A stretch of 64,000 bases of DNA. Origin: Comamonas badia DSM 17552. GTDB lineage: Bacteria > Pseudomonadota > Gammaproteobacteria > Burkholderiales > Burkholderiaceae_C. A model generated the notes under the pieces. It ran no database searches. It worked only from the letters and a program-made list of their open reading frames with translations, and was not told the origin of the DNA. A program made the translations under genes and the position numbers. Location of the stretch: contig NZ_AXVM01000001.1 of NCBI RefSeq assembly GCF_000484635.1, forward strand, positions 248,001 through 312,000. The letters run 5' to 3'. Position 1 is the stretch's first letter, and each line of letters starts with the position of its first letter. Shown here piece after piece: positions 1,520-54,341 of this stretch.

Positions 1520-1774
1520 ATGGCCACTTTGAAAGCCCAGTTCAAGACCGCCGTCGCCAACTCGAAGAAACTTTCCGAGCGGCCGGACAACAAAACGCTG
1601 CTGAAAATCTATGCGCTGTACAAGCAGGCCACCGAGGGCGACAGCAGCGGCAAGCGCCCCGGGCTGCTCGACCCGGTGGGCCGCGCCAAATGGGATGCGT
1701 GGGACGGCCTCAAGGGTACCAGCGCCGATCAGGCGATGCAGGGGTATGTGGACCTGATCGAATCGCTGAGCTGA
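1520..1774 (+). CDS. Acyl-CoA-binding protein
   Basis: A small 84-residue protein of the ACBP family, which binds medium- and long-chain acyl-CoA esters in the cytoplasm as a four-helix bundle. The hallmark YALYKQATEGD and the later KWDAWDGLKG are present, and the length matches the family almost exactly. The start is set by an AAGGAGA ribosome site. It precedes the PHA/neutral-lipid gene region, where an acyl-CoA pool protein would be useful. Confidence 0.9.
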   Translation: MATLKAQFKTAVANSKKLSERPDNKTLLKIYALYKQATEGDSSGKRPGLLDPVGRAKWDAWDGLKGTSADQAMQGYVDLIESLS

Positions 1775-1795
1775 AAACCGCCCGACAGACCCGGA

Positions 1796-2143
1796 TCAGG
1801 CCTTTGCCCTGGGCCTGGCCCTGGGTTTTGGCTTGGCCTTGGATTCGGCCGCGTGCGCGCTCAGCAGTTGATCGAGGTTGTCGATGATCTCGCTCTCGAT
1901 GCGCTGCTTGAAGACACCCATCAGCAGGCCCAGCTGCACCTGCAGATCAAAGTGCGACGCGGTCACCCGCAGCCGCCCTTTCAGGCCCGGGCGCTCGAAA
2001 GCAATGCTGTCCTGGGCCTTGCCCTTCTCCACCGCGCAGCGCATGTCGAATTCCTGCTCCACCCGCGCCTGCCACTGCGCCGCCATGCGCCGCGCCTGTG
2101 CCATGCCGAGCTGGTGTTCACGCTGAAGCTGAATGACGGCCAC
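1796..2143 (-). CDS. Polyhydroxyalkanoic acid system family protein
   Basis: A 115-residue protein resembling the short PHA granule-region family, starting MAVIQLQREHQLGMAQAR with a central WQARVEQEFDMRC and a hydrophobic LGLLMGVFKQRIESEI stretch. Homologues are usually found with PHA or phasin genes and their exact role is not settled. The last residues (SKAKPKPRARPRAKA) form a short basic Pro/Ala/Lys/Arg tail like those on other proteins of this region. It lies downstream of the TetR gene on the same strand, with a gap of about 40 bases. Confidence 0.7.
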   Translation of the reverse strand: MAVIQLQREHQLGMAQARRMAAQWQARVEQEFDMRCAVEKGKAQDSIAFERPGLKGRLRVTASHFDLQVQLGLLMGVFKQRIESEIIDNLDQLLSAHAAESKAKPKPRARPRAKA

Positions 2144-2182
2144 GGTGGCTCCTGAAGGGGTGGTTGAGGATGGCGGCCCGCA

Positions 2183-2857
2183 TCAGCGCGGCGGGCCGCC
2201 GGCAGGCAGCCGGTAGAGCTGCATCAGGCGGTCCAGCTCCTGGCGGGCATCGCTGCGAACGTAGGGAGCGAGCAGCCCCAGCAATTGCCAGGCGCCGCGC
2301 ACCAGGCATTGTTGCGCATGCTCGGGCTGCTCGTCCAGCCGCGGCTGCAGCGCGTATTCAAAATTGAGCCAGTAGTTGATGGTGAACACCAGCTGGCCGC
2401 TCAGGCGCTCGCGTTCACCACCCGCGATGTCGATGACGCCATGGCGCTCCAGCCCGCCGACCATGGCCTGCATGGCCTGCTGCTTGCGGTCCAGCAGATG
2501 CCGGAATTGCTGCTCCAGATGCCGGTTGCGCGAAATCAGGTCGCTGATGTCGCGGTAGATGAAGCGGTAGTCGCGGATATGTTCCAGCCAGGTGTGCAGC
2601 AGGAACCACGCGTCCTCCAGACCGCTCACCTCGGCAGCCGCCTGCACCAAGGGTTCGACGGTGCGCATGTAGCGCTCCAGCAGCGCATTGGTCAGTTCTT
2701 CCTTGGCCGGGAAGTGGTAATAGAGGTTGCCGGGACTGATGCCCAGCTCGCTGGAGATGAGCCCGGTGGAGACGTTGGCCTCGCCAAAGCGGTTGTACAG
2801 CGCCAGCGTCGCCGCCAGGATGCGCTCCGCCGTGGGGTGGGCCTTGCGCGGCTTCAT
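2183..2857 (-). CDS. TetR/AcrR family transcriptional regulator
   Basis: A 224-residue regulator. Residues about 8-55 form a TetR helix-turn-helix: ILAATLALYNRFGEANVS, then LGISPGNLYYHFPAKEEL. The C-terminal ligand-binding half contains ENIRDY-like helices and a long Leu-rich end. Its start overlaps the stop of the upstream patatin gene by four bases (ATGA), so the two are probably co-transcribed and translationally coupled. It may respond to a fatty acyl ligand and control this lipid region, but that is inference from the neighbours. Confidence 0.85.
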   Translation of the reverse strand: MKPRKAHPTAERILAATLALYNRFGEANVSTGLISSELGISPGNLYYHFPAKEELTNALLERYMRTVEPLVQAAAEVSGLEDAWFLLHTWLEHIRDYRFIYRDISDLISRNRHLEQQFRHLLDRKQQAMQAMVGGLERHGVIDIAGGERERLSGQLVFTINYWLNFEYALQPRLDEQPEHAQQCLVRGAWQLLGLLAPYVRSDARQELDRLMQLYRLPAGGPPR

Positions 2858-4083
2858 GCGGGCGCGCGCCTGTGTGCAAGCCCGGTCTTCATGGCCGCTT
2901 CCAGTGCATCCAGCACCGCATTCAGACGTGCGGCGGGTGCGGGGCTCTGGAGCATGCCAGCGACCAGATGGCGGTTTTTGTCATGCAGCGTTTCAGCATC
3001 GAAGCCCATGCCATGGCGCGCGAACAATTGCGTGAGCCGCACCGCGTTCAGGCGCAGCCAGTGCCGGGTCTGCTGGTAGGCATGCTCGGCCAGCTCGCGG
3101 CGCTGGCGGTAGCTGAAGGTGTTGGCCAGGAACATCTCCGCATCGCGGTGGTCGGGTTCGAGCAGCACGATGTCGGTGTCGGGGTAATCCTGCGCGTAAT
3201 GCTTCATGCCCAGTTCGAGCCGCGAATGGATCAGCGAGCGGAAGGTCTGGTTCAGCACCACGGGCAGGCCGCCACGCACCAAGGGCGGAATGCGCTCGCG
3301 CTCCGCCACGCCCGGGTTGGCCAGGAACGGCACCAGCGGGTTGAGGCAAATCAGGATATCCACGCCACGCTCCAGCGCGATCGAGGCGTGCATGGTCTTC
3401 TTGAGCGCGCCGTCGGCATAGTGGCGCCCGTCGATCCGCACCGGCGGGAACAGCCCGGGCAAGGCCGCGCTGGCGACGATGGCGCGCGAGATGGGCACAT
3501 GGTCCCAGCCCGGCTGGCCAAAGGGCGCGGCGTCGCCGCTGTCAAGATCGGTGGCCACCAGAGTAAGGCTGGCCTTGAGCTTGCGGAAATCGTTGCAGCG
3601 CCCCTTGCGCGTGAGCAGCGCCTCGATCTCGCGGTGCACGGCCTCGTTGTCCAGCAGGCCCGTCGGCAGCGCCGGGCCCAGCGTTTCCAGGATGCTGCCC
3701 AGCGAATGGCCTTGCGCGGCCCAGCCCCACAGGCCCTGCGCCAGCAGCCAGGGCGCGCGCGCCGCACGGCCCTGCATCTCGCCCCAGGCCGGGCGCAGCA
3801 GCGCGTTCAGGTTGAAGTCTTCGTCGGCCAGCGGGTCGTCGATGAACATGTGGCACATGTCCCGCGGGCGGATGCCGTTGGCCAGGCCTGCCGCGATGAA
3901 GGCCCCGGCCGATACGCCGATGTAATCGCTGCACTGGTGCAGCCTGAGGCCCCGCAGGCACTCATCGAGCGCGCACAGCGCGCCGATTTCGTAGATCGCC
4001 CCCAGCGGGCCGCCGCCGGCCAGCGCCAGCGCAACCCGGGGCTTTTTCAGCGGTTCAGACAAGGCCTTGGCTTTGGTGGGCAT
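2854..4083 (-). CDS. Patatin-like phospholipase
   Basis: A 409-residue protein of the patatin family of serine lipid acyl hydrolases, which use a Ser-Asp dyad. The oxyanion loop LAGGGPLGAIYE is near residue 20. The nucleophile elbow is GVSAG (about residue 60), and DGALKK carries the catalytic Asp. No signal peptide is evident, so it is probably cytoplasmic. The C-terminal half has the SYRQRRELAEHAYQQT helix seen in proteobacterial homologues near PHA genes. It heads an operon with the TetR gene, overlapping by 4 bases. Confidence 0.85.
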   Translation of the reverse strand: MPTKAKALSEPLKKPRVALALAGGGPLGAIYEIGALCALDECLRGLRLHQCSDYIGVSAGAFIAAGLANGIRPRDMCHMFIDDPLADEDFNLNALLRPAWGEMQGRAARAPWLLAQGLWGWAAQGHSLGSILETLGPALPTGLLDNEAVHREIEALLTRKGRCNDFRKLKASLTLVATDLDSGDAAPFGQPGWDHVPISRAIVASAALPGLFPPVRIDGRHYADGALKKTMHASIALERGVDILICLNPLVPFLANPGVAERERIPPLVRGGLPVVLNQTFRSLIHSRLELGMKHYAQDYPDTDIVLLEPDHRDAEMFLANTFSYRQRRELAEHAYQQTRHWLRLNAVRLTQLFARHGMGFDAETLHDKNRHLVAGMLQSPAPAARLNAVLDALEAAMKTGLAHRRAPA

Positions 4084-29118: not shown

Positions 29119-29164
29119 TTCGCTATCATGGACAAATGTATTGACGTTTGACTTTAATAGCGAA
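29119..29164. promoter_or_regulatory. Likely HipB operator half-sites in the hipBA promoter
   Basis: TTCGCTAT (29119-29126) and ATAGCGAA (29157-29164) are perfect inverted repeats spaced by 30 bases just before the hipB start. HipB dimers bind inverted repeats in their own promoter, so these look like a split operator. Between them are TTGACG (29141) and AT-rich stretches usable as promoter elements. Confidence 0.45.
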
Positions 29165-29165
29165 C

Positions 29166-29519
29166 ATGCCTCGCAAATCACCCATTGTCTTTCCACAGGA
29201 GCAGCGCCTGCTCTCCGAGCTCGGCGAACGGCTGCGCCTTGCCCGCAAGAGGCGCAAGCTGAGCAACGCGGTGATAGCGCAACGCGCAGGGGTTTCCAGG
29301 ACCACGGTGTACAAAGTCGAGGCAGGCGATCCTGGCGCTACCCTGGGTGCCTATGTCCGGGTGCTGGCCGTGCTGGGCCTCGAAGGCGATCTCAATCTGC
29401 TGGCAGCCGACGACCGCATTGGGCGCAAGCTGCAGGACTTGGCGCTGGAGCCGTCACCCGGTACCAGGCGCCGCAAGGTCACCCCTTCACCCGTCCAGAA
29501 TCGCGAGGGGTCTGCATGA
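29166..29519 (+). CDS. hipB: HipB-like antitoxin (XRE DNA-binding)
   Basis: A 117-residue protein from the ATG at 29166; a TTG six codons earlier is possible. Residues 18-75 form a Cro/CI helix-turn-helix: LGERLRLARKRRKLSNAVIAQ, then RAGVSRTTVYKVEAGDPGATL. The C-terminal 40 residues are polar and Arg-rich. HipB represses its own operon and neutralises the HipA kinase. Its stop overlaps the hipA start by four bases (ATGA), the normal layout. Confidence 0.88.
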   Translation: MPRKSPIVFPQEQRLLSELGERLRLARKRRKLSNAVIAQRAGVSRTTVYKVEAGDPGATLGAYVRVLAVLGLEGDLNLLAADDRIGRKLQDLALEPSPGTRRRKVTPSPVQNREGSA

Positions 29520-30772
29520 CCAAGCAGGACAACACCCTGGAAGTCTGGCTGGACGATGACCTTGGCCCTGCACGCCAAGTCGGCACGCTTTCCCATGACC
29601 GCGGCCAGATCCGCTTTCACTACGAACCGGATTGGCTCAGGGATCCTCGCGCTTTTGCGCTGGACCCCGATCTCTCCCTGGACGAACACCCCTTCTTTCC
29701 GAGGCCGGAACTGGGCAACTTCGGCATCTTCCTGGATTCATCGCCTGACCGCTGGGGCCAGACGCTGATGAAGCGCCGTGAAGCCTTGCAAGCCAAGGAC
29801 GAGAAGCGGCCGCCTCGCACGCTCTACGCCTGGGACTTCCTCATCGGCGTGCAGGACCAGACCCGCCAGGGCGCATTGCGCTTTCGCAGGCCGGGTACGG
29901 AAACCTTCCTCGGTGACGAGAAGATGGCCGCTCCGCCGGTGACGACCTTGCGCGAACTGGAAGCGGTCGCCTATCAGCTCAGCAACCGGCGCATTGACGA
30001 CCTCGATGCCCTGCGCAGGTGGCTGGCCGTGCTTGTCGCTCCGGGTGCCTCGCTGGGCGGGGCCAGGCCAAAGGCCAACTTCACGGAGGCCGACGGCTCG
30101 CTCTGGATCGCCAAGTTCCCCGCGCGTGACGATGACCGGGACGTTGGGGCCTGGGAGTACGCTGTTCACCAACTGGCTCGTAAAGCCGGCGTGGATGTAC
30201 CCGCAGCAAGGCTGATCAGGCTGGGCAACGATTTTCACACCTTCTGCGTCCAGAGGTTCGATCGCGCGCATGGTGCCAGGCGCTTCTATGCCTCGGCGAT
30301 GACACTGCTGCGCAAGACGCAGAGCGAGGGCACGAGCTACCTGGAATTGGCTCAGTTCATCCGAGCCCAGGGCGATGCAGAGCATGCAGATGCAGACTTG
30401 GCACAGCTATTCCGACGCGTGGCATTCCACGTCGCGGTCGGCAACCGGGACGATCACCTGCGCAACCATGGCTTCGTGCTGGGCAAGACAGGGTGGCGCC
30501 TCGCGCCAGCGTTTGATGTCAACCCGAACATCGACAAGGCGGAACATGTCCTGAACATCGACGATGTCGACAATCGGCCGAGCATGAAGACGGTTATCAG
30601 CACGGCGGCGTTCTACGGGCTCGATGACGGCTCTGCTCGGCAGGTGATGGAGGAAGTGGCTGCAGCGGTCGATGGCTGGCAGGACGCGGCGCGCAGGGCC
30701 GGCATCTCAGGCGCTGACATTGACCTGACGGCGGGTGCTTTCTCGGCTCATGCGGAGCTTCGTACGCAGTAG
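29516..30772 (+). CDS. hipA: HipA-like serine/threonine kinase toxin
   Basis: A 418-residue HipA family kinase. The N-terminal Couple_HipA part runs from LEVWLDDDLGPARQVGTL to FPRPELGNFGIFLDSSPDRWG. The kinase core has GASLGGARPKANF (the P-loop-like phosphate-binding region), DGSLWIAKFP, the catalytic GNRDDHLRNHGF near residue 310, and LAPAFDVNPN with the metal-binding Asp. HipA of E. coli phosphorylates GltX and causes persistence. Key residues look intact, so it is probably active. It lies between the two att-like sites. Confidence 0.9.
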   Translation: MTKQDNTLEVWLDDDLGPARQVGTLSHDRGQIRFHYEPDWLRDPRAFALDPDLSLDEHPFFPRPELGNFGIFLDSSPDRWGQTLMKRREALQAKDEKRPPRTLYAWDFLIGVQDQTRQGALRFRRPGTETFLGDEKMAAPPVTTLRELEAVAYQLSNRRIDDLDALRRWLAVLVAPGASLGGARPKANFTEADGSLWIAKFPARDDDRDVGAWEYAVHQLARKAGVDVPAARLIRLGNDFHTFCVQRFDRAHGARRFYASAMTLLRKTQSEGTSYLELAQFIRAQGDAEHADADLAQLFRRVAFHVAVGNRDDHLRNHGFVLGKTGWRLAPAFDVNPNIDKAEHVLNIDDVDNRPSMKTVISTAAFYGLDDGSARQVMEEVAAAVDGWQDAARRAGISGADIDLTAGAFSAHAELRTQ

Positions 30773-43804: not shown

Positions 43805-45664
43805 ATGCGATTCCAAATCCCTTCCTTTTCCGTCTCCCCAGGCCAGGCAATCCAGCGCCGGCGCTTTCTGAGGGCGCTAGCGGCGGGTACCGCATTGGGC
43901 ACGCTCGATGCCGCACTGCCCGCCTGGGCACTGCAAGACCTGCCAGCAGCCCGTACGGGAACGCCACCCGAGTTGCGTGGCCCCGTCTTTGACCTGACGC
44001 TGGCCGAAACCCGCGTCGACTTCGACGGCCGCACGGGCATCGCCACCACCATCAACGGCAGTCTGCCCGGGCCGACGCTGCGCATGCGCGAAGGCGAGAC
44101 CGTGACGATTCGCGTCACCAACCGCCTGCGCGAGACGGCATCTATCCACTGGCACGGCATCATCCTGCCATTCCAGATGGACGGCGTACCGGGCGTGAGC
44201 TTTGCCGGCATCGCGCCCGGTGAGACCTTCACCTACCGCTACACGCTGGAGCAAAGCGGCACCTACTGGTACCACTCGCACAGCGGCATGCAGGAGGTGA
44301 CCGGCCTGTATGGCGCGCTCATCGTCGAGCCGCGCGATCGTGAAACCATTCGCACCGACCGCGAGCACGTCGTGCTGCTGTCGGACTGGACCGGCACCGA
44401 CCCGATGCGCGCGTTGGCCAAGCTCAAGGCGCAAGGCGACGTGTTTAACCAGCACCGGCCCACCTTCGTCAAATTCCTGCGTGACGTCCGCGAGCAGGGC
44501 CTGGGCGCGGCGCTGCAGGAGCGTGACATGTGGTACGCCATGCGCATGAGCCCGAGCGACATGGCCGATTTGTCCTCGACCGTGCTCAGTTACCTCGTCA
44601 ACGGCAGCGCGCCTGGCGCCAACTGGACGGCGCTCTTCAAGCCCGGCGAGCGCGTGCGCCTGCGCTGCATCAACGGCAGCGGCAATACGTTCTATGACGT
44701 GCGCATTCCGGGCCTCAAGCTCACCGTGGTGCAGGCCGACGGGCAAGACGTGGAGCCAGTGACGGTGGATGAGTTCCGCTTCGGCCCCGGCCAGACCTAC
44801 GACGTGATTGTGCAGCCCAAAGACGATGCCTACACGCTCTTTGCGCAATCGATGGATCGCACCGGCTACGCGCGCGCCACACTGGCGGTACGCCCGGGCC
44901 TGAGCGCGCCGGTGCCCGCGCTGGATGCGGTGCAGTGGCTCACCATGGCCGACATGATGGGCGGCATGGCGCGAGGCGGTGGCCACGACATGGCGGCGAT
45001 GGGCCACGGCCCCATGGCTGGGATGAACCACGCTGGCATGGCCGGCATGCAGGGCATGGGCGGCGGGCACGACATGTCGGCCATGGGCGGCATGCCCGGC
45101 ATGGCGCACAGCATGGCGTCCAATCCGTTGCAAAAGCCCGGCACCGCCGTGCGCCACGCTCGCACCGAATGGGGCCCCGGCGCCGACATGCGCGTGGACA
45201 TGCCGCGCACCAACCTGGATGACCCCGGCGTCGGACTGCGCGGCAACGGCCGGCGCGTGCTCACGCTGGCCGATCTCAAGACCGTCGGCGGATCGCTCTA
45301 TGCCGGCGGGCCCGAGCGCGAAATCGAGTTGCATCTGACGGGCAACATGGAGCGCTACACCTGGTCGTTCGACGGCCTTGACTTCACCGACAGTCGCCCC
45401 GTGCATTTCCGCTACGGCGAGCGCCTGCGCGTAATCCTGCACAACGACACCATGATGACCCACCCCATGCACCTGCACGGCATGTGGCAGGAGCTGGAAA
45501 ACGCCTCGGGCGAATTCGTCGCGCGCCTGCACACCATCCCCGTGCAGCCGGCGCAGCGCGTGAGCTTTCTCGTCAGCGCCGACGCGCTCGGCCGCTGGGT
45601 CTGGCACTGCCACCTGATGTTCCACATGGAAATGGGCATGTTCCGCGAGGTGGTGGTGGCATGA
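43805..45664 (+). CDS. copA: Copper resistance multicopper oxidase CopA
   Basis: The protein has 619 residues. A twin-arginine signal ([18 protein letters not shown]) sends it folded to the periplasm. Copper ligands: [28 protein letters not shown] and [14 protein letters not shown] Met/His-rich insert at about 395-440 ([20 protein letters not shown]) binds additional copper, as in PcoA/CopA. It oxidises Cu(I) to the less toxic Cu(II). First gene of the operon controlled by copRS; its stop overlaps the copB start (ATGA). Not the same as the P-type CopA at 51948. Confidence 0.95.
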
Positions 45665-46869
45665 GAAAGAACCTGAAAATGAACCGACTTGCCCCGCACA
45701 CTTTGGCCTTGCGACTGGTGCCGCTGGCCACGGCCCTGATCCTCACGGCCACTGCCACGTCCGCCCTGGCTCAGGATCACGATGCGCATGGCGCACACGA
45801 CGCTGCGGCACAGTCCAGCACCGCGCCTGCGGCCGGGTCCATGGCTGGCATGAATCATGAGGGCATGCCGATGCCGGCGGGCAGTGCGCCGACAGCGGAT
45901 GAAGCGTCTGCCATGAATCACGGCAGCATGCCCATGCGAGGCAGCGTCCCGGCTGCAAATCCTGGAGCGCCAACCATGGATCATGGCGCCATGCCGGGCA
46001 TGGATCACGGCCCCGCGCCATCCCAAGGTGCCGACAGCGGCCCCGCTTCCGCGATGAACCACGGCGCTGCGCCAGCTTCCAGCGGCTCCATGGCGGGCAT
46101 GGATCACGGCGACATGCAGATGCAAGGCGGCAGCCCGCCCGCCGATGCGCGCGACCCCAACGGCTATTCCGACGGCTTCGAGCGCGGCAGCGGCAAGTAT
46201 TCGCTCACGGGCGTGCCGCGCCTGCAACTGGGCGACCAGATGAGCTTTGCGAACCTGAGGGTCAACCGCTTGGAGCGCGCCTGGGCGCGCCACGGCGATA
46301 ACGCCACGACGTATGACCTGCAAGCGCGCATCGGCCGCGACTTCAATCACCTGGTCATCAAGGCCGAGGGCGACGTCGCCCAGGGCAAAGTACAGGATTC
46401 GCGCACCGAACTGCTCTGGGGCCACGCCATCGCCGCCTTCTGGGACAGTCAACTCGGCGTGCGCTTCGACCACGGCACAGGCAAGGATCGCCAGTGGCTT
46501 GCGGCTGGCGTGCAGGGCCTCGCGCCCTACTGGTTTGAGCTCGATGCCACGGTCTATCTGGGCAGTGGCGGCCGCACCGCGCTGCGGCTCGAAGGGAGCT
46601 ATGACTGGCTTCTCACGCAAAAGCTGATTCTGCAGCCGCGCACCGAATGGAATTTCTACGGCAAGAGCGATCCGGCCAACGCCATCGGCAGCGGCCTTGC
46701 CAACGCCAGTGCGGGTTTGCGCCTGCGCTACGAAATCACGCGCCAGATCGCACCCTACATCGGCGTCGAATGGCAACACAGCTTTGGCCTCACGGGAGAC
46801 TTCGTGCGCGCCTCGGGTGGCAGTGCCACCCAGACGCGCTGGTTGGCGGGCTTGAATTTCTGGTTCTGA
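45661..46869 (+). CDS. copB: Copper resistance outer-membrane protein CopB
   Basis: A 402-residue protein. It has a signal peptide (ATALILTATATSALAQ) and then about 130 residues of Met/His-rich repeats (MAGMNHEGMPMPAG, MDHGAMPGMDHGP) that probably bind copper. The C-terminal beta-barrel domain follows, typical of CopB (GVPRLQLGDQMSFANLRVNRL; LLWGHAIAAFWDSQLGVR), ending in the aromatic residue F for outer-membrane insertion. It starts within the copA stop codon. Confidence 0.93.
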   Translation: MRKNLKMNRLAPHTLALRLVPLATALILTATATSALAQDHDAHGAHDAAAQSSTAPAAGSMAGMNHEGMPMPAGSAPTADEASAMNHGSMPMRGSVPAANPGAPTMDHGAMPGMDHGPAPSQGADSGPASAMNHGAAPASSGSMAGMDHGDMQMQGGSPPADARDPNGYSDGFERGSGKYSLTGVPRLQLGDQMSFANLRVNRLERAWARHGDNATTYDLQARIGRDFNHLVIKAEGDVAQGKVQDSRTELLWGHAIAAFWDSQLGVRFDHGTGKDRQWLAAGVQGLAPYWFELDATVYLGSGGRTALRLEGSYDWLLTQKLILQPRTEWNFYGKSDPANAIGSGLANASAGLRLRYEITRQIAPYIGVEWQHSFGLTGDFVRASGGSATQTRWLAGLNFWF

Positions 46870-48350: not shown

Positions 48351-48629
48351 ATGACCCATGACCATGCATCCCATCCGCAGAGTGTGCAGACCGGCGGGTT
48401 CTGGCGCTCGCGCTATGCCATCGGCCTGCTCGTGTTCGGCGCTGCCGCCGGGTACTTTCTATGGACCGAGCACCGTGCCCACTTGGCGCAATGGTGGCCC
48501 TATGCCTTCCTGCTGGCCTGCCCGCTGATGCATGTCTTCATGCACAAAGGCCATGGTGGTCATGGCGGCCACGGTGGTGGCTCCGGAGCCACTGGCCAGG
48601 GCACTGGACAAAACTCCGACAGGGGCTGA
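48351..48629 (+). CDS. DUF2933-type small membrane protein
   Basis: A 92-residue protein: polar N-terminus, two hydrophobic helices (YAIGLLVFGAAAGYFLW and WWPYAFLLACPLMHVFMH), and a Gly/His-rich tail (HGGHGGHGGG). The LLACPLMHVFMHKGHGGH segment is the DUF2933 hallmark. These proteins accompany copper-efflux genes, and the CPLMH motif with its His tail suggests metal binding at the membrane. It lies 10 bases after the preceding gene and 4 bases before the next. Confidence 0.75.
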   Translation: MTHDHASHPQSVQTGGFWRSRYAIGLLVFGAAAGYFLWTEHRAHLAQWWPYAFLLACPLMHVFMHKGHGGHGGHGGGSGATGQGTGQNSDRG

Positions 48630-48633
48630 GGCC

Positions 48634-49281
48634 ATGGAGCACACGGGATCGTCGTATGGCCTGTGGACTCTGGTGGTGCTCAACGTGGCGATCTTCGTCA
48701 TGTTCGCCTTCAGCTTCTTCAAGCCGGCCAGCGCGCGCGACTGGCGCAGTTTCGGGGCGTTCACAGCGTTCATCGTGGCGCTGTTCGTGGAGATGTATGG
48801 CTTCCCGCTGACCATCTACTTCCTGTCGGGCTGGCTGGGCCAGAAGGTCCCGGGCGTGGACCTGCTGAACCACAACGCCGGTCACCTGCTGGAGCTGCTG
48901 TTCGGCTGGGGCGGTGATCCGCACCTTGGGCCGTTCCACATTCTCAGCTACCTGTTCATTGGCGGTGGCTTCTGGCTGCTGGCCGCGGCTTGGCCCGTGC
49001 TCTACGAGGCCCAGCGGCAGGGGCGGCTGGCGCGCACCGGTGTTTACGCTCGGGTGCGGCATCCGCAGTACATCGCCTTCGTGTTGATCATGTTCGGCTT
49101 TCTCCTGCAATGGCCGACCTTGCTGACGCTGTTGATGTTCCCGGTGCTTGTGGTGGTGTATGCCCGCCTGGCGCACAACGAGGAGCAGGAAAGCGGACGT
49201 CGTTTTGGACAGGCTTGGCAGGAGTATGCGCAGCATGTCCCGCGTTTCATTCCGCGCTGGGGCGCATGGGTCCAGCCTTGA
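48634..49281 (+). CDS. ICMT/NnrU-like membrane methyltransferase family protein
   Basis: A 215-residue inner-membrane protein with five or six helices. The C-terminal half has GVYARVRHPQYIAFVLIMFGF and LAHNEEQESGRRFGQAWQEY, the isoprenylcysteine carboxyl methyltransferase-type signature (RHPxY and E…F). In bacteria the role of these enzymes is mostly unknown. In copper islands it regularly follows a DUF2933 gene, as here, so the two probably work together. Confidence 0.78.
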   Translation: MEHTGSSYGLWTLVVLNVAIFVMFAFSFFKPASARDWRSFGAFTAFIVALFVEMYGFPLTIYFLSGWLGQKVPGVDLLNHNAGHLLELLFGWGGDPHLGPFHILSYLFIGGGFWLLAAAWPVLYEAQRQGRLARTGVYARVRHPQYIAFVLIMFGFLLQWPTLLTLLMFPVLVVVYARLAHNEEQESGRRFGQAWQEYAQHVPRFIPRWGAWVQP

Positions 49282-49336
49282 GCGACGCATCCGATGACCA
49301 GAATGTGACCATCAGCATGAAATCAAGGAAGTTGCG

Positions 49337-49840
49337 ATGACGTTGAAACCGCTGATCCTGGGGGCCGTAGGATTGCTGGCCTTGCTGCTGGTCGCAGGGG
49401 CGGGTTACTTTTCCCTGCGCGCCAGCGACCGGCAGGCGATGCCGCCGCTGCACAGCCTGCACCCCGATGATCCCCAGGTGCTGCGCGTCGGCGCCCGCAT
49501 CTACGCGCAACAATGTGCGGCCTGCCATGGCGCCAAGGGCGAGGGCCAACCCAGTTGGCGTGATCGCGGGCCCGATGGCCTGCTACCGGCACCGCCCCAC
49601 GATCCCAGCGGCCACACCTGGCACCATCCCGACGAGCAGCTGTTCGCCATCACCAAGCAGGGACTAGCCCAGTTGATCGATCAGCCCGACTACCGTACGG
49701 CTATGCCCATCTACGGCGGTGTACTGAGCGACGACGAGATCGTGGCCGTGCTGTCATGGATCAAGGCGCAATGGCCGCCCGAGATACGGCGCCGCCACGA
49801 TGAAATCAATGTCCAGTACCGCTTGTCTTTGTCCCGCTAG
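49337..49840 (+). CDS. Membrane-anchored c-type cytochrome
   Basis: A 167-residue protein with one N-terminal helix (LILGAVGLLALLLVAGAGYF, probably an uncleaved anchor) and a single haem site: Cys60, Cys63 and His64 in YAQQCAACHGAKGEG. The likely Met ligand is in YRTAMPIYGGVLSDDEI. It faces the periplasm and could take electrons from Cu(I) oxidation or give them to a partner. It follows the ICMT-like gene by 55 bases. Confidence 0.85.
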   Translation: MTLKPLILGAVGLLALLLVAGAGYFSLRASDRQAMPPLHSLHPDDPQVLRVGARIYAQQCAACHGAKGEGQPSWRDRGPDGLLPAPPHDPSGHTWHHPDEQLFAITKQGLAQLIDQPDYRTAMPIYGGVLSDDEIVAVLSWIKAQWPPEIRRRHDEINVQYRLSLSR

Positions 49841-49891
49841 CCATCGGGGCATGGGCCAGTACGGGCCGGATGCGTCCACAAGGAAAAGGGC

Positions 49892-49922
49892 TTGACCTTG
49901 CCGCGATGGCAAGGTCAAGAAT
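49892..49922 (+). promoter_or_regulatory. CueR-type promoter before the DUF3141 gene
   Basis: The sequence has -35 TTGACC (49892-49897), a 19-base spacer, and -10 AAGAAT (49917-49922). The spacer and -35 include a perfect inverted repeat: CTTGACCTTGCC (49891-49902) and GGCAAGGTCAAG (49908-49919) around 5 bases. The over-long spacer and ACCTTGCC…GGCAAGGT palindrome are the hallmark of MerR-family Cu(I) regulators (CueR). No merR-type gene is in the window. Confidence 0.75.
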
Positions 49923-49948
49923 CGAGATAACTCCACAAAGGCATGGGC

Positions 49949-51811
49949 ATGAACCAACACCTGCATCACCACGGCCATGCCGCGGGCGAACAGACCCCGG
50001 CAACTCAGGCACCGTCGGCGCTGGACTTTTTCGACTACCAGCGGGACTTCCTCGAACGCACGGTACTTTTCTGGGACACGCTTCGCCAGCGCGCGAACAA
50101 CATGCTTGAGCACGAGCGAGCCGGGTTGCCGCCGCTTCTGGATTTCAAGCACGAAACGCTGCTGGACGCGCGCCGCTTCGAGCGGCCAGTCAACTATGCA
50201 CTGCTGCGCATCACCGAAATCGACACGCATTGCTGGGATGACTGCGTCGATCCTGACAAACCGCCGGTCATCGTCGTCGATCCACGCGCCGGCCATGGCC
50301 CCGGCATTGGCGGCTTCAAGCGCGACTCCGAAGTCGGAATGGCCATGCGTGAAGGCCATCCGGTCTATTTCGTCATCTTCTTTCCGGAGCCGACTCTGGG
50401 GCAGACCCTGGCAGACGTGTTGCATGTGCTGCGGAGCTTCGTCGAAGAGGTCGCACTACGCCATCCTGGCAAGCCTCCTGTGCTCTATGGCAACTGTCAG
50501 GCCGGGTGGGCGGTGACGCTGCTGTCCGCAGACTGCGCCGGTCTGGTCGGGCCGGTGGTGCTCAATGGTTCACCCTTGTCGTATTGGGCCGGCGAGTCCG
50601 GTGTCAATCCGATGCGTCTTTCCGGAGGGCTTCTTGGCGGCAGTTGGTTGGCGCATCTGACGGCCGACCTGGGCAATGGCCGCTTCGACGGGGCCTGGCT
50701 AGCGCAGAATTTCGAGAACCTCAAGCCCGAAAAGGCCGTTTGGGAAAAGTACGCCCAACTCTTCACCAACGTTGACAGTGAGCAGGGGCGCTTTCTGGAG
50801 TTCGAACGCTGGTGGAACGGTTTTTATTTCCTGAGCCGAGAAGAGATTCTCGCGATCGTTGAGAACCTGTTCATCGGCAATCAGATTGAACAAGGTCTTT
50901 TCCGGATTTGCCAGGGTTGCACTGCTGACCTGAGGCGGATCACGAATCCAATCGTCATCTTTGCATCCTACGGCGACAACATCACGCCACCGCACCAGGC
51001 GCTTGGATGGATCCCCGCTGTCTACAGCGACACAGAGAATCTCAGGCAAGCCGGGCAGCGCATCGTCTACCTCACGAACCCGCATGTTGGCCATCTCGGC
51101 ATTTTTGTCTCTGCCAGGGTGGCTCGTTTAGAGCACCGGGCCATCCTGGAGAGCCTGGCTGACATTGAAGCGCTGGCCCCGGGCCTCTATGAAATGAAGA
51201 TCGACAATCCGTCGGGTGACCCGGACTGCCATAAACCCAGCTACAGCATCCGCTTCGAACCCCGTCAGGTGCAAGACCTGAAAACGGATTACCCGCAGGA
51301 AGCTTTTGAGCGCGTGAAACAAGTCTCGACGGTCAACGAAGCACTTTACCGGGCATTCGTCAGTCCTTGGGTGCAAGCGCTGGCCACGCCCTGGACAGCC
51401 GAAATGCTCAAGTGGCTCCATCCGATGCGCACCAGCCGTTATTTGCTCTCTGAAGCGTTCAGTCCATGGATGCGCGGCGTTGCCTTGCTGGCCGAGTCGC
51501 TTAGCAAGAACCGCCAACCGCTTGCGCAGAACCACCCGTTCATCAAGCGGGAGCGTGAAGCCGTAGGGGAAGTAACCCATGCGATGGGACAACTGCGCGA
51601 AGGCCGCGACGCTGCGAGGGAGCAGGCGTTTCGCCTGATGTTTCAAAACCCTGACTTGTTCTCAAGCGTTCTGAGCATGATGGGAAAAAAGGTCGGTGAT
51701 GGCAATCTAGGGCGCCCCAATTCAGTTTCTGTGCTCGATGTGAAAGACGATCAGGTCGTGAAAACCGTTCCAGTGGGTAAGACGCCCAACGGCATCAGCG
51801 TTACGCCTTGA
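49949..51811 (+). CDS. DUF3141 protein, chimeric at both ends
   Basis: A 620-residue protein from the ATG at 49949 (the ATG at 49943 has no room for a ribosome site). Residues about 26-585 are DUF3141, an alpha/beta-hydrolase-like family related to PHA synthases: VDPRAGHGPGIGGFKRDSE, the elbow GNCQAGW with a Cys nucleophile, GSPLSYWAGESG and GDNITPPHQALGW. The first 18 residues ([15 protein letters not shown]) repeat a linker of the copper ATPase at 52174. The last 30 (NSVSVLDVKDDQVVKTVPVG…) are a YVTN beta-propeller repeat. It may act on acyl or PHA-like substrates. Confidence 0.8.
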   Translation: MNQHLHHHGHAAGEQTPATQAPSALDFFDYQRDFLERTVLFWDTLRQRANNMLEHERAGLPPLLDFKHETLLDARRFERPVNYALLRITEIDTHCWDDCVDPDKPPVIVVDPRAGHGPGIGGFKRDSEVGMAMREGHPVYFVIFFPEPTLGQTLADVLHVLRSFVEEVALRHPGKPPVLYGNCQAGWAVTLLSADCAGLVGPVVLNGSPLSYWAGESGVNPMRLSGGLLGGSWLAHLTADLGNGRFDGAWLAQNFENLKPEKAVWEKYAQLFTNVDSEQGRFLEFERWWNGFYFLSREEILAIVENLFIGNQIEQGLFRICQGCTADLRRITNPIVIFASYGDNITPPHQALGWIPAVYSDTENLRQAGQRIVYLTNPHVGHLGIFVSARVARLEHRAILESLADIEALAPGLYEMKIDNPSGDPDCHKPSYSIRFEPRQVQDLKTDYPQEAFERVKQVSTVNEALYRAFVSPWVQALATPWTAEMLKWLHPMRTSRYLLSEAFSPWMRGVALLAESLSKNRQPLAQNHPFIKREREAVGEVTHAMGQLREGRDAAREQAFRLMFQNPDLFSSVLSMMGKKVGDGNLGRPNSVSVLDVKDDQVVKTVPVGKTPNGISVTP

Positions 51812-51889
51812 CGGTTTAGCCGTCGCGTGCAGCCGCCGGGCAAGCATACAAAAAGTAGAACAAGCCAGATTCGTCCAATAAAAACAGCC

Positions 51890-51920
51890 TCGACCTTGCC
51901 ATGCTGAACAGGTCAAGGGT
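51890..51920 (+). promoter_or_regulatory. CueR-type promoter before the copper ATPase gene
   Basis: The sequence has -35-like TCGACC (51890-51895), a 19-base spacer and -10-like AAGGGT (51915-51920). GACCT…AGGTC form the inverted repeat. It is a weaker version of the site at 49892, and the two leaders remain alike up to the start codon (CTCCACAAAGGC versus CTCCACAAGGAC), so one was copied from the other. Confidence 0.6.
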
Positions 51921-51947
51921 CGAGCCAAACTCCACAAGGACATTGAC

Positions 51948-54341
<2,394 letters not shown>

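Follow-up and report, generated by a model that had tools for sequence, protein, structure and literature searches.

In copA and actP units controlled by CueR or HmrR, a palindrome lies within a 19-bp promoter spacer ahead of the copper ATPase gene, and the accessible part of PMC1526738 gives the CueR signal as ACCTTCCC-(5)-TGGAAGGT with a 19-bp spacer. A promoter of this type, P1, is present in the 64,000-nucleotide stretch of the Comamonas badia DSM 17552 genome analyzed here (contig NZ_AXVM01000001.1, positions 248,001 to 312,000; hereafter, the window), but there it precedes the gene for a putative hydrolase, whereas the ATPase gene has a second, degenerate site. The hydrolase belongs to DUF3141 (PF11339). 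On the Acidovorax sp. T1 plasmid NZ_CP021649, a DUF3141 protein with a core 89 to 90% like that of the window is encoded in the same type of island, together with a copper-binding protein, DUF2933, an ICMT-like gene, a P-type ATPase, and a cytochrome D1 protein. In Acidovorax, DUF3141 follows the ATPase gene by 20 bp and has its own start; in the window it lies before the ATPase gene, has lost its native N terminus, is fused at both ends, and carries a CueR-type promoter directly upstream. Class I and class III PhaC and other Cys-triad alpha/beta hydrolases share a putative Cys-Asp-His triad with the DUF3141 protein. When resistance islands exchange alleles by homologous recombination, a sharp switch of sequence type is left within a shared gene, as is seen here; unlike ordinary allelic exchange, the segment in the window brings a foreign gene, in frame, into the 5′ end of a pump gene.

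The copper island of the window extends from about 39 to 61 kb and encodes a CueO-like oxidase, CopS, CopR, CopA, CopB, a cupredoxin, and CusF, as well as an ICMT-like protein, a cytochrome c, the DUF3141 ORF, a copper ATPase, and CusCBA. Among long ORFs, two forward frames cover 49943 to 52211, those of DUF3141 and the ATPase. The ORF-finding tool placed the DUF3141 start at 49943; by our reading of the sequence, the ATG at 49949 is preferred, as it fits the AAAGG at 49937 to 49941. The stop codon ends at 51811. The copper P-type ATPase gene (51948 to 54341, + strand; 797 aa; TIGR01511, 580.7 bits, cutoff 397) has a chimeric 5′ end. Elsewhere in the window, an ORF at 29141 to 30772 weakly matches the model of the HipA-family toxin YjjJ (32.4 bits, cutoff 401).

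A preliminary description of this DNA had noted that 49965 to 50002 and 52174 to 52211 are identical at 37/38 bases. Self-comparison of the window bore this out: the next best place for the 38-mer on either strand reached 25/38, a difference that rules out chance similarity. BLASTN recovered the same relationship as a repeat block (39/41, 2e-15) and added a second block linking both promoter/leader regions (81/112, 4e-12). The left copy (49965 to 50002, + strand) falls within a grafted head of 18 codons (49949 to 50002, + strand), the first 18 of a copper ATPase, which now encode the N terminus of the DUF3141 protein. The right copy (52174 to 52211, + strand) encodes the linker between the two metal-binding domains of the ATPase. 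Together, the copies form a direct repeat that bounds extra DNA. They are identical at 38/38 bases in the three other genomes that carry the fusion (G002, G004, and G381), the element is single (36/38) in the unfused genomes G001, G232, and G383, and the ATPase of G262 contains two 32/38 copies. Several of these ATPases have a His-rich segment at their N terminus and a similar one in the linker that separates the metal-binding domains; such segments are a possible origin of the repeat. The His-rich repeat also suggests a route by which heavy-metal-binding domains may be lost or gained.

The operon of G001, a genome of the same genus, aligns collinearly with the window to the left and to the right of this place, where it lacks 2,209 bp and has no DUF3141 gene. 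Positions 1 to 1563 of the G001 stretch (L086) correspond to window 48437 to 50005 and positions 1523 to 3075 to window 52174 to 53726, so that the two matches overlap by 41 bp. The same empty-site pattern was found in G232 and G383. At six further loci (G262, G005, G183, G185, G006, and a second place in G004), a similar leader stands directly on an ATPase gene whose product has one or two metal-binding domains. Among the ATPases behind this leader, L087, L120, L121, and L126 differ from L122 to L125 and L127 in having one or two heavy-metal-binding domains. These nine unfused loci form the comparison set, weaker-matching family genomes being left out. A cytochrome c gene lies upstream, as in the window, at seven of the nine; it was unmatched at the other two, G006 and the second G004 place. 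None of the genomes compared showed a complete intermediate. Comparison with the unfused islands thus shows, at the level of sequence, that the 5′ end of the ATPase gene in the window contains 2,209 additional bp, which are bounded by the 38-bp direct repeat and extend to 52173, farther than previously described. That the promoter, the leader, and the first 18 codons of the DUF3141 ORF are of copper-ATPase type, as had been proposed, agrees with the nine loci at which such a leader stands directly on an ATPase gene. The further proposal that DUF3141 had captured this promoter holds insofar as the ATPase promoter and 5′ end do stand on DUF3141; simple capture at the native DUF3141 locus is ruled out by the empty site in G001.

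The extra DNA is shown by its matches to be a composite of a 5′-truncated DUF3141 gene, a D1-like tail, and a second copper-ATPase promoter with its N terminus. Native DUF3141 homology begins at window 50000, and the DUF3141 core does follow the 18 codons directly, as first described. This core (50003 to 51716, + strand; alpha/beta hydrolase; 3′ boundary somewhere in about 51694 to 51722) matches PF11339 over residues 35 to 573 of 622 with 687.1 bits (gathering score 29.7 bits), the single DUF3141 match in the genome. The native N-terminal extension is absent, with 18 ATPase residues in its place; Acidovorax-type relatives have about 60 other, variable residues there, outside the Pfam match, and the extension is a trait of the closest relatives and no Pfam criterion. 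A comparison with DUF3141 genes elsewhere, as the preliminary description had advised, found the His-rich start at none of 79 other loci (best, 6/13 residues), which rules out a general DUF3141 N terminus as the source of the head.

Both Acidovorax sp. T1 and G300 have the gene order ATPase, DUF3141, cytochrome D1 protein. Against Acidovorax T1, the extra DNA aligns in two pieces, window 50000 to 51868; because these 1,869 bp correspond to 2,867 bp in Acidovorax, about 1 kb is missing, the gap falling where DUF3141 ends and the last ~30 D1 codons begin. Those codons and the DNA downstream form a cytochrome-D1/YVTN beta-propeller remnant (51717 to 51868, + strand) in frame with DUF3141. The remnant DNA matches G300 and the Acidovorax T1 plasmid; its tail scores 25.2 bits with NCBIfam TIGR02276, under the cutoff of 27.85, and tblastn matched it (87% over 30 aa) in two carriers, L002 and L003, which appear identical to the records G381 and G004. 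The ORF ends in NSVSVLDVKDDQVVKTVPVGKTPNGISVTP, resembling the end of a D1 protein. From about 51.87 kb onward, a second ATPase leader and N terminus follow. This N terminus (51948 to 52173, + strand) derives from another lineage and contains the first heavy-metal-binding domain (...CPMHSEV...), one of two PF19335 stretches in the window ATPase; its closest named relative found is an ATPase on a Comamonas antarctica plasmid (L155). The Acidovorax T1, G300, and C. antarctica sequences are relatives of the donors, and the donors themselves are not among them. Reading frames are kept at the junctions: DUF3141 now begins with the resident leader (P1, ribosome site, and 18 codons), and the ATPase begins with the other one (P2).

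The DUF3141 ORF is thus grafted at its start and at its end, the C-terminal graft being absent from the preliminary description, and the double-ended in-frame gene fusion is real. In each of the four carriers the fused frame is uninterrupted; dN/dS is 0.062 to 0.173 across the six carrier pairs (on a small number of changes), and the four proteins do not differ over their last 60 residues. The fused ORF looks to be under selection. The putative Cys-Asp-His triad, assigned by motif as C183/D343/H382 (numbered from the ATG at 49949), is invariant in 38/38 aligned sequences, and such a triad is named for a DUF3141 cluster in the accessible part of PMC11878206. A structure model built from 37 sequences (mean pLDDT 74.7, pTM 0.75) has low confidence in the head (residues 1 to 18, pLDDT < 50), the tail (578 to 620), and some core segments. 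In the fold search it matched alpha/beta hydrolases in general, PHA synthases such as PhaC (6k3c, 9knk) among them, with TM-scores on the query of 0.24 to 0.36 in the 50 matches listed; by fold, generic alpha/beta hydrolases are no worse a match to the model than PHA synthases. The protein differs from PhaC in these low query TM-scores, in a class III PhaC score (TIGR01836) of 22.5 bits, far under the cutoff of 365.3, and in the lack of a meaningful match in the PDB sequence search, which returned two matches at E values of 0.88 and 0.89 that we take as chance.

P1 (49891 to 49919, + strand), located by dyad search and box match, is a perfect dyad, CTTGACCTTGCC-GCGAT-GGCAAGGTCAAG, with 12-bp arms paired at 12/12 positions. 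As read from the sequence, the −35 (TTGACC, 49892 to 49897) and −10 (AAGAAT, 49917 to 49922) elements are separated by a 19-bp spacer, and the palindrome lies within it, as in CueR/HmrR promoters; by our own count, P1 fits 13/16 positions of the CueR signal as given in the accessible text of PMC1526738. It is the sole exact match in the genome to the box TTGACCTTSC-N7-GSAAGGT; a two-mismatch box lies 5′ of a copZ-like gene (identified by reading of its motif) and cueR, and three more two-mismatch boxes lie elsewhere. A CueR regulator is encoded in the genome (158.3 bits, cutoff 147.4), with four more matches under the cutoff. Across the four fusion carriers the dyad pairs at 11 to 12 of 12 positions, and G381 shows a symmetric TTTACC..GGTAAA change. 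P2 (51888 to 51918, + strand) is a second CueR-like site with a degenerate right half (dyad 8/12). Its letters are identical in all four carriers, and its leader had no match outside them among the matches listed for 399 family genomes at E ≤ 0.001. The three terminator-like sites detected in 49800 to 52200 all lie off the + strand.

CueR-type boxes are rare ahead of other DUF3141 genes. With up to two mismatches, none was found within ~500 bp upstream at 79 other loci; with up to three mismatches on the + strand over the same ~500 bp, 4/81 loci had one, namely, two fusion carriers (1 mismatch) and two others (3 mismatches), and the same scan gave a box in 16/1,390 random control stretches. 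A CueR-type promoter as a general DUF3141 trait was therefore not found at these loci. In the window, CueR with Cu(I) or Ag(I) would activate P1, and because of this activation DUF3141 would be copper induced; the fusion probably makes the hydrolase copper inducible. P1 would also contribute to ATPase transcription, since P2 is degenerate and no + strand terminator-like site lies between the genes. Because P1 would transcribe the ATPase as well, a one-gene CueR unit would have become a two-gene operon driven mainly from P1.

Among the matches listed for 399 family genomes, the fusion is carried by four, the window genome, G002, G004, and G381; within the genus it is present in 3/9 genomes, the window's included. 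When 399 genomes of the order were searched at the DNA level, no further fusion was found; the best other match reached 77% and covered part of the DUF3141 core, and there were short matches to the leader. In 400-base steps across 50201 to 53000, the other carriers are 95.8 to 100% identical to the window, except for G002 at 51801 to 52200 (86.5%), where part of its ATPase start is missing. Near flanks are lower (about 90 to 91% at 49401 to 49800; 81 to 86% at 53401 to 54200). Farther left, at 43 to 49 kb, G002 is again mostly 93 to 100% like the window (one step, 89.8%); because identity rises again there, the island is a mosaic, and it is not plain that the cassette is younger than the island as a whole. 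The 160-nt leaders are 67 to 91% alike between carriers, save for the G002/G381 pair (99%), and since they diverge more than the cassette, one cassette stands behind differing leaders.

Recombination between islands is also visible inside the ATPase gene. At diagnostic sites that separate the fused G002 and G004 from the unfused G001, G232, and G383, the window is of fused type at 9/9 sites up to 52532 and of unfused type at 126/126 from 53030. This right switch (52532 to 53030, + strand) is seen also in the identity profile and in codon counts: silent changes between the window and G002 affect 27/167 codons in cytochrome c, 21/575 in DUF3141, 2/275 in the first part of the ATPase, and 57/245 in the last. 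The sharp switch therefore indicates that fused and unfused islands recombined inside the ATPase gene. On the left, where sites are few, the window is of unfused type at 49903 to 49957 and of fused type at 49979, with a mixed patch (67 sites) upstream; fused and unfused islands have perhaps recombined at the 38-bp element too. As to the recipient, the right side is G001-like, and 43.8 to 47.0 kb is unmatched in the G001 stretch and 90 to 100% identical in G002. Window 45001 to 46600 is 99.8 to 100% identical to L124 from G183, a genome of another genus (G002 and G004, 90 to 99%), a likeness that points to another recent exchange within the island.

Because the leader stands directly on the ATPase gene at nine unfused loci and G001 lacks the 2,209 bp and has a single element, we favor a course in which the composite segment would have been inserted in the copper ATPase gene at the 38-bp element, leaving the direct repeat. 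Such insertion of a composite cassette is the most likely origin of the fusion. The opposite direction, in which the fused form is old and G001-type loci arose by excision, has in its favor that recombination between the repeats would yield the one-domain ATPase of G001, whose joint, GGCAACTTCTGC, is a plausible crossover product. However, none of the six other unfused loci, which also lack DUF3141 at this place, has that joint; five of their leaders have diverged from the window to 63 to 75% (G262, 92%), and homologues of the individual parts of the extra DNA occur separately in other islands, so that we consider excision quite improbable. A tandem ancestor (leader-ATPase_A-DUF3141-cytD1-P2-ATPase_B) that underwent two local deletions, one of the ATPase_A body with the DUF3141 5′ end and one of most of cytD1, would give an identical end product. 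The order ATPase-DUF3141-cytD1 exists on the Acidovorax T1 plasmid and in G300, and, compared with that plasmid, ~1.0 kb is missing where DUF3141 meets the cytD1 tail. Against this, no such arrangement was apparent among the matches listed, in family searches that were not aimed at tandems, and the 38-bp repeat would then be merely the ATPase's own internal repeat; the deletions are a possible course, if an unlikely one.

Four other DUF3141 frames (L061, L063, L070, and L072) do have His clusters close to their start, as they might if the 5′ likeness had arisen by convergent His-rich coding behind a common promoter type, with DUF3141 outside copper control. This is highly improbable given DNA identity of 37/38 that includes silent positions, a leader and upstream cytochrome c gene contiguously homologous to the unfused ATPase locus, and a dyad preserved across carriers. 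Assemblers can be misled by a 38-bp repeat, but the four assemblies are alike while truly diverged, and the G002 locus lies on a single 3.33-Mb contig; the likelihood of an assembly chimera is close to negligible. Insertion at the 38-bp element, followed by recombination between islands and giving a CueR-driven two-gene unit with an acyl or polyester hydrolase, is as a whole an explanation that we hold to be probable.

The relatives of the DUF3141 gene bear on its function. The preliminary description had regarded a copper-inducible protein of this kind as a new type of copper response. The copper link itself is not new with the fusion, a copper-island marker being present in the flanks of 53/78 unfused DUF3141 loci versus 1/60 control stretches; what is special here is the CueR-type promoter directly upstream, seen with up to two mismatches at none of 79 other loci within ~500 bp. 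The 78 loci are a nonrandom draw of nearest relatives, with the two fusions left out, some near-duplicates, and flanks of varying length, and the 60 controls are stretches taken at even spacing from G002, G300, and G232. A P-type ATPase match lies near 41/78 of the unfused loci and is strong in 28. Genes for DUF5676 (47/78) and YHS-domain proteins (34/78) also lie near DUF3141, mostly upstream, and a second alpha/beta hydrolase lies near 16/78. Polyphosphate kinase 2, found near DUF3141 on Roseibium and Methylocystis plasmids (L157, 11218 to 12024; L158, 9879 to 10655) and also at 4/78 loci, is a second storage-polymer gene near copper genes.

Enoyl-CoA hydratase/phosphate acetyltransferase genes were found at 40/78 of these loci and acetate/propionate kinase genes at 36/78, often downstream of DUF3141, compared with 0/60 controls for both. 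On a Halomonas sp. KO116 plasmid (L246), a DUF3141-pta-like-kinase set lies inside a copper island. With these acetyltransferase and kinase neighbors, DUF3141 would be part of an apparent route from acyl-CoA to ATP. Because such genes often adjoin its relatives, the enzyme, a cysteine-type alpha/beta hydrolase, would most likely act on (hydroxy)acyl thioesters or polyester, our best guess from gene context, and under copper stress it could supply acyl-CoA to ATP formation or repair. No ackA/pta-like genes were found in the flanks of L004 to L006, and none are listed beside DUF3141 in Acidovorax T1; since these are the closest unfused relatives, the acyl-CoA pathway is perhaps inapplicable here. 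The flanks of L007 and L009 stop short, so that ackA/pta presence is not readable in them.

The accessible parts of the open-access literature gave no copper link for DUF3141, and a search of it for copper together with polyhydroxyalkanoate synthase and CueR found nothing. A landing cassette of the kind proposed would give its passenger the resident promoter and the pump a new start and would therefore confer CueR control without disabling export. We suggest tentatively, as a generalization rather unlikely to hold in full, that the 38-bp repeat is a recurrent landing site at which passengers gain CueR control while export is kept, and from which they exit by repeat recombination; here, copper stress would be tied to acyl-CoA or storage polymer, and the head may bind or sense copper. 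With relatives of the donor parts, empty and filled sites, the repeat, and later recombination all at hand, the locus is an unusually readable record of gene entry into an apparently metal-responsive unit. It also draws attention to a family of cysteine-type alpha/beta hydrolases that accompanies copper islands in alpha-, beta-, and gammaproteobacteria, a pattern not found in the literature as far as it was accessible. The company that DUF3141 keeps with copper islands therefore makes a link between copper and acyl-CoA or polymer metabolism directly testable.
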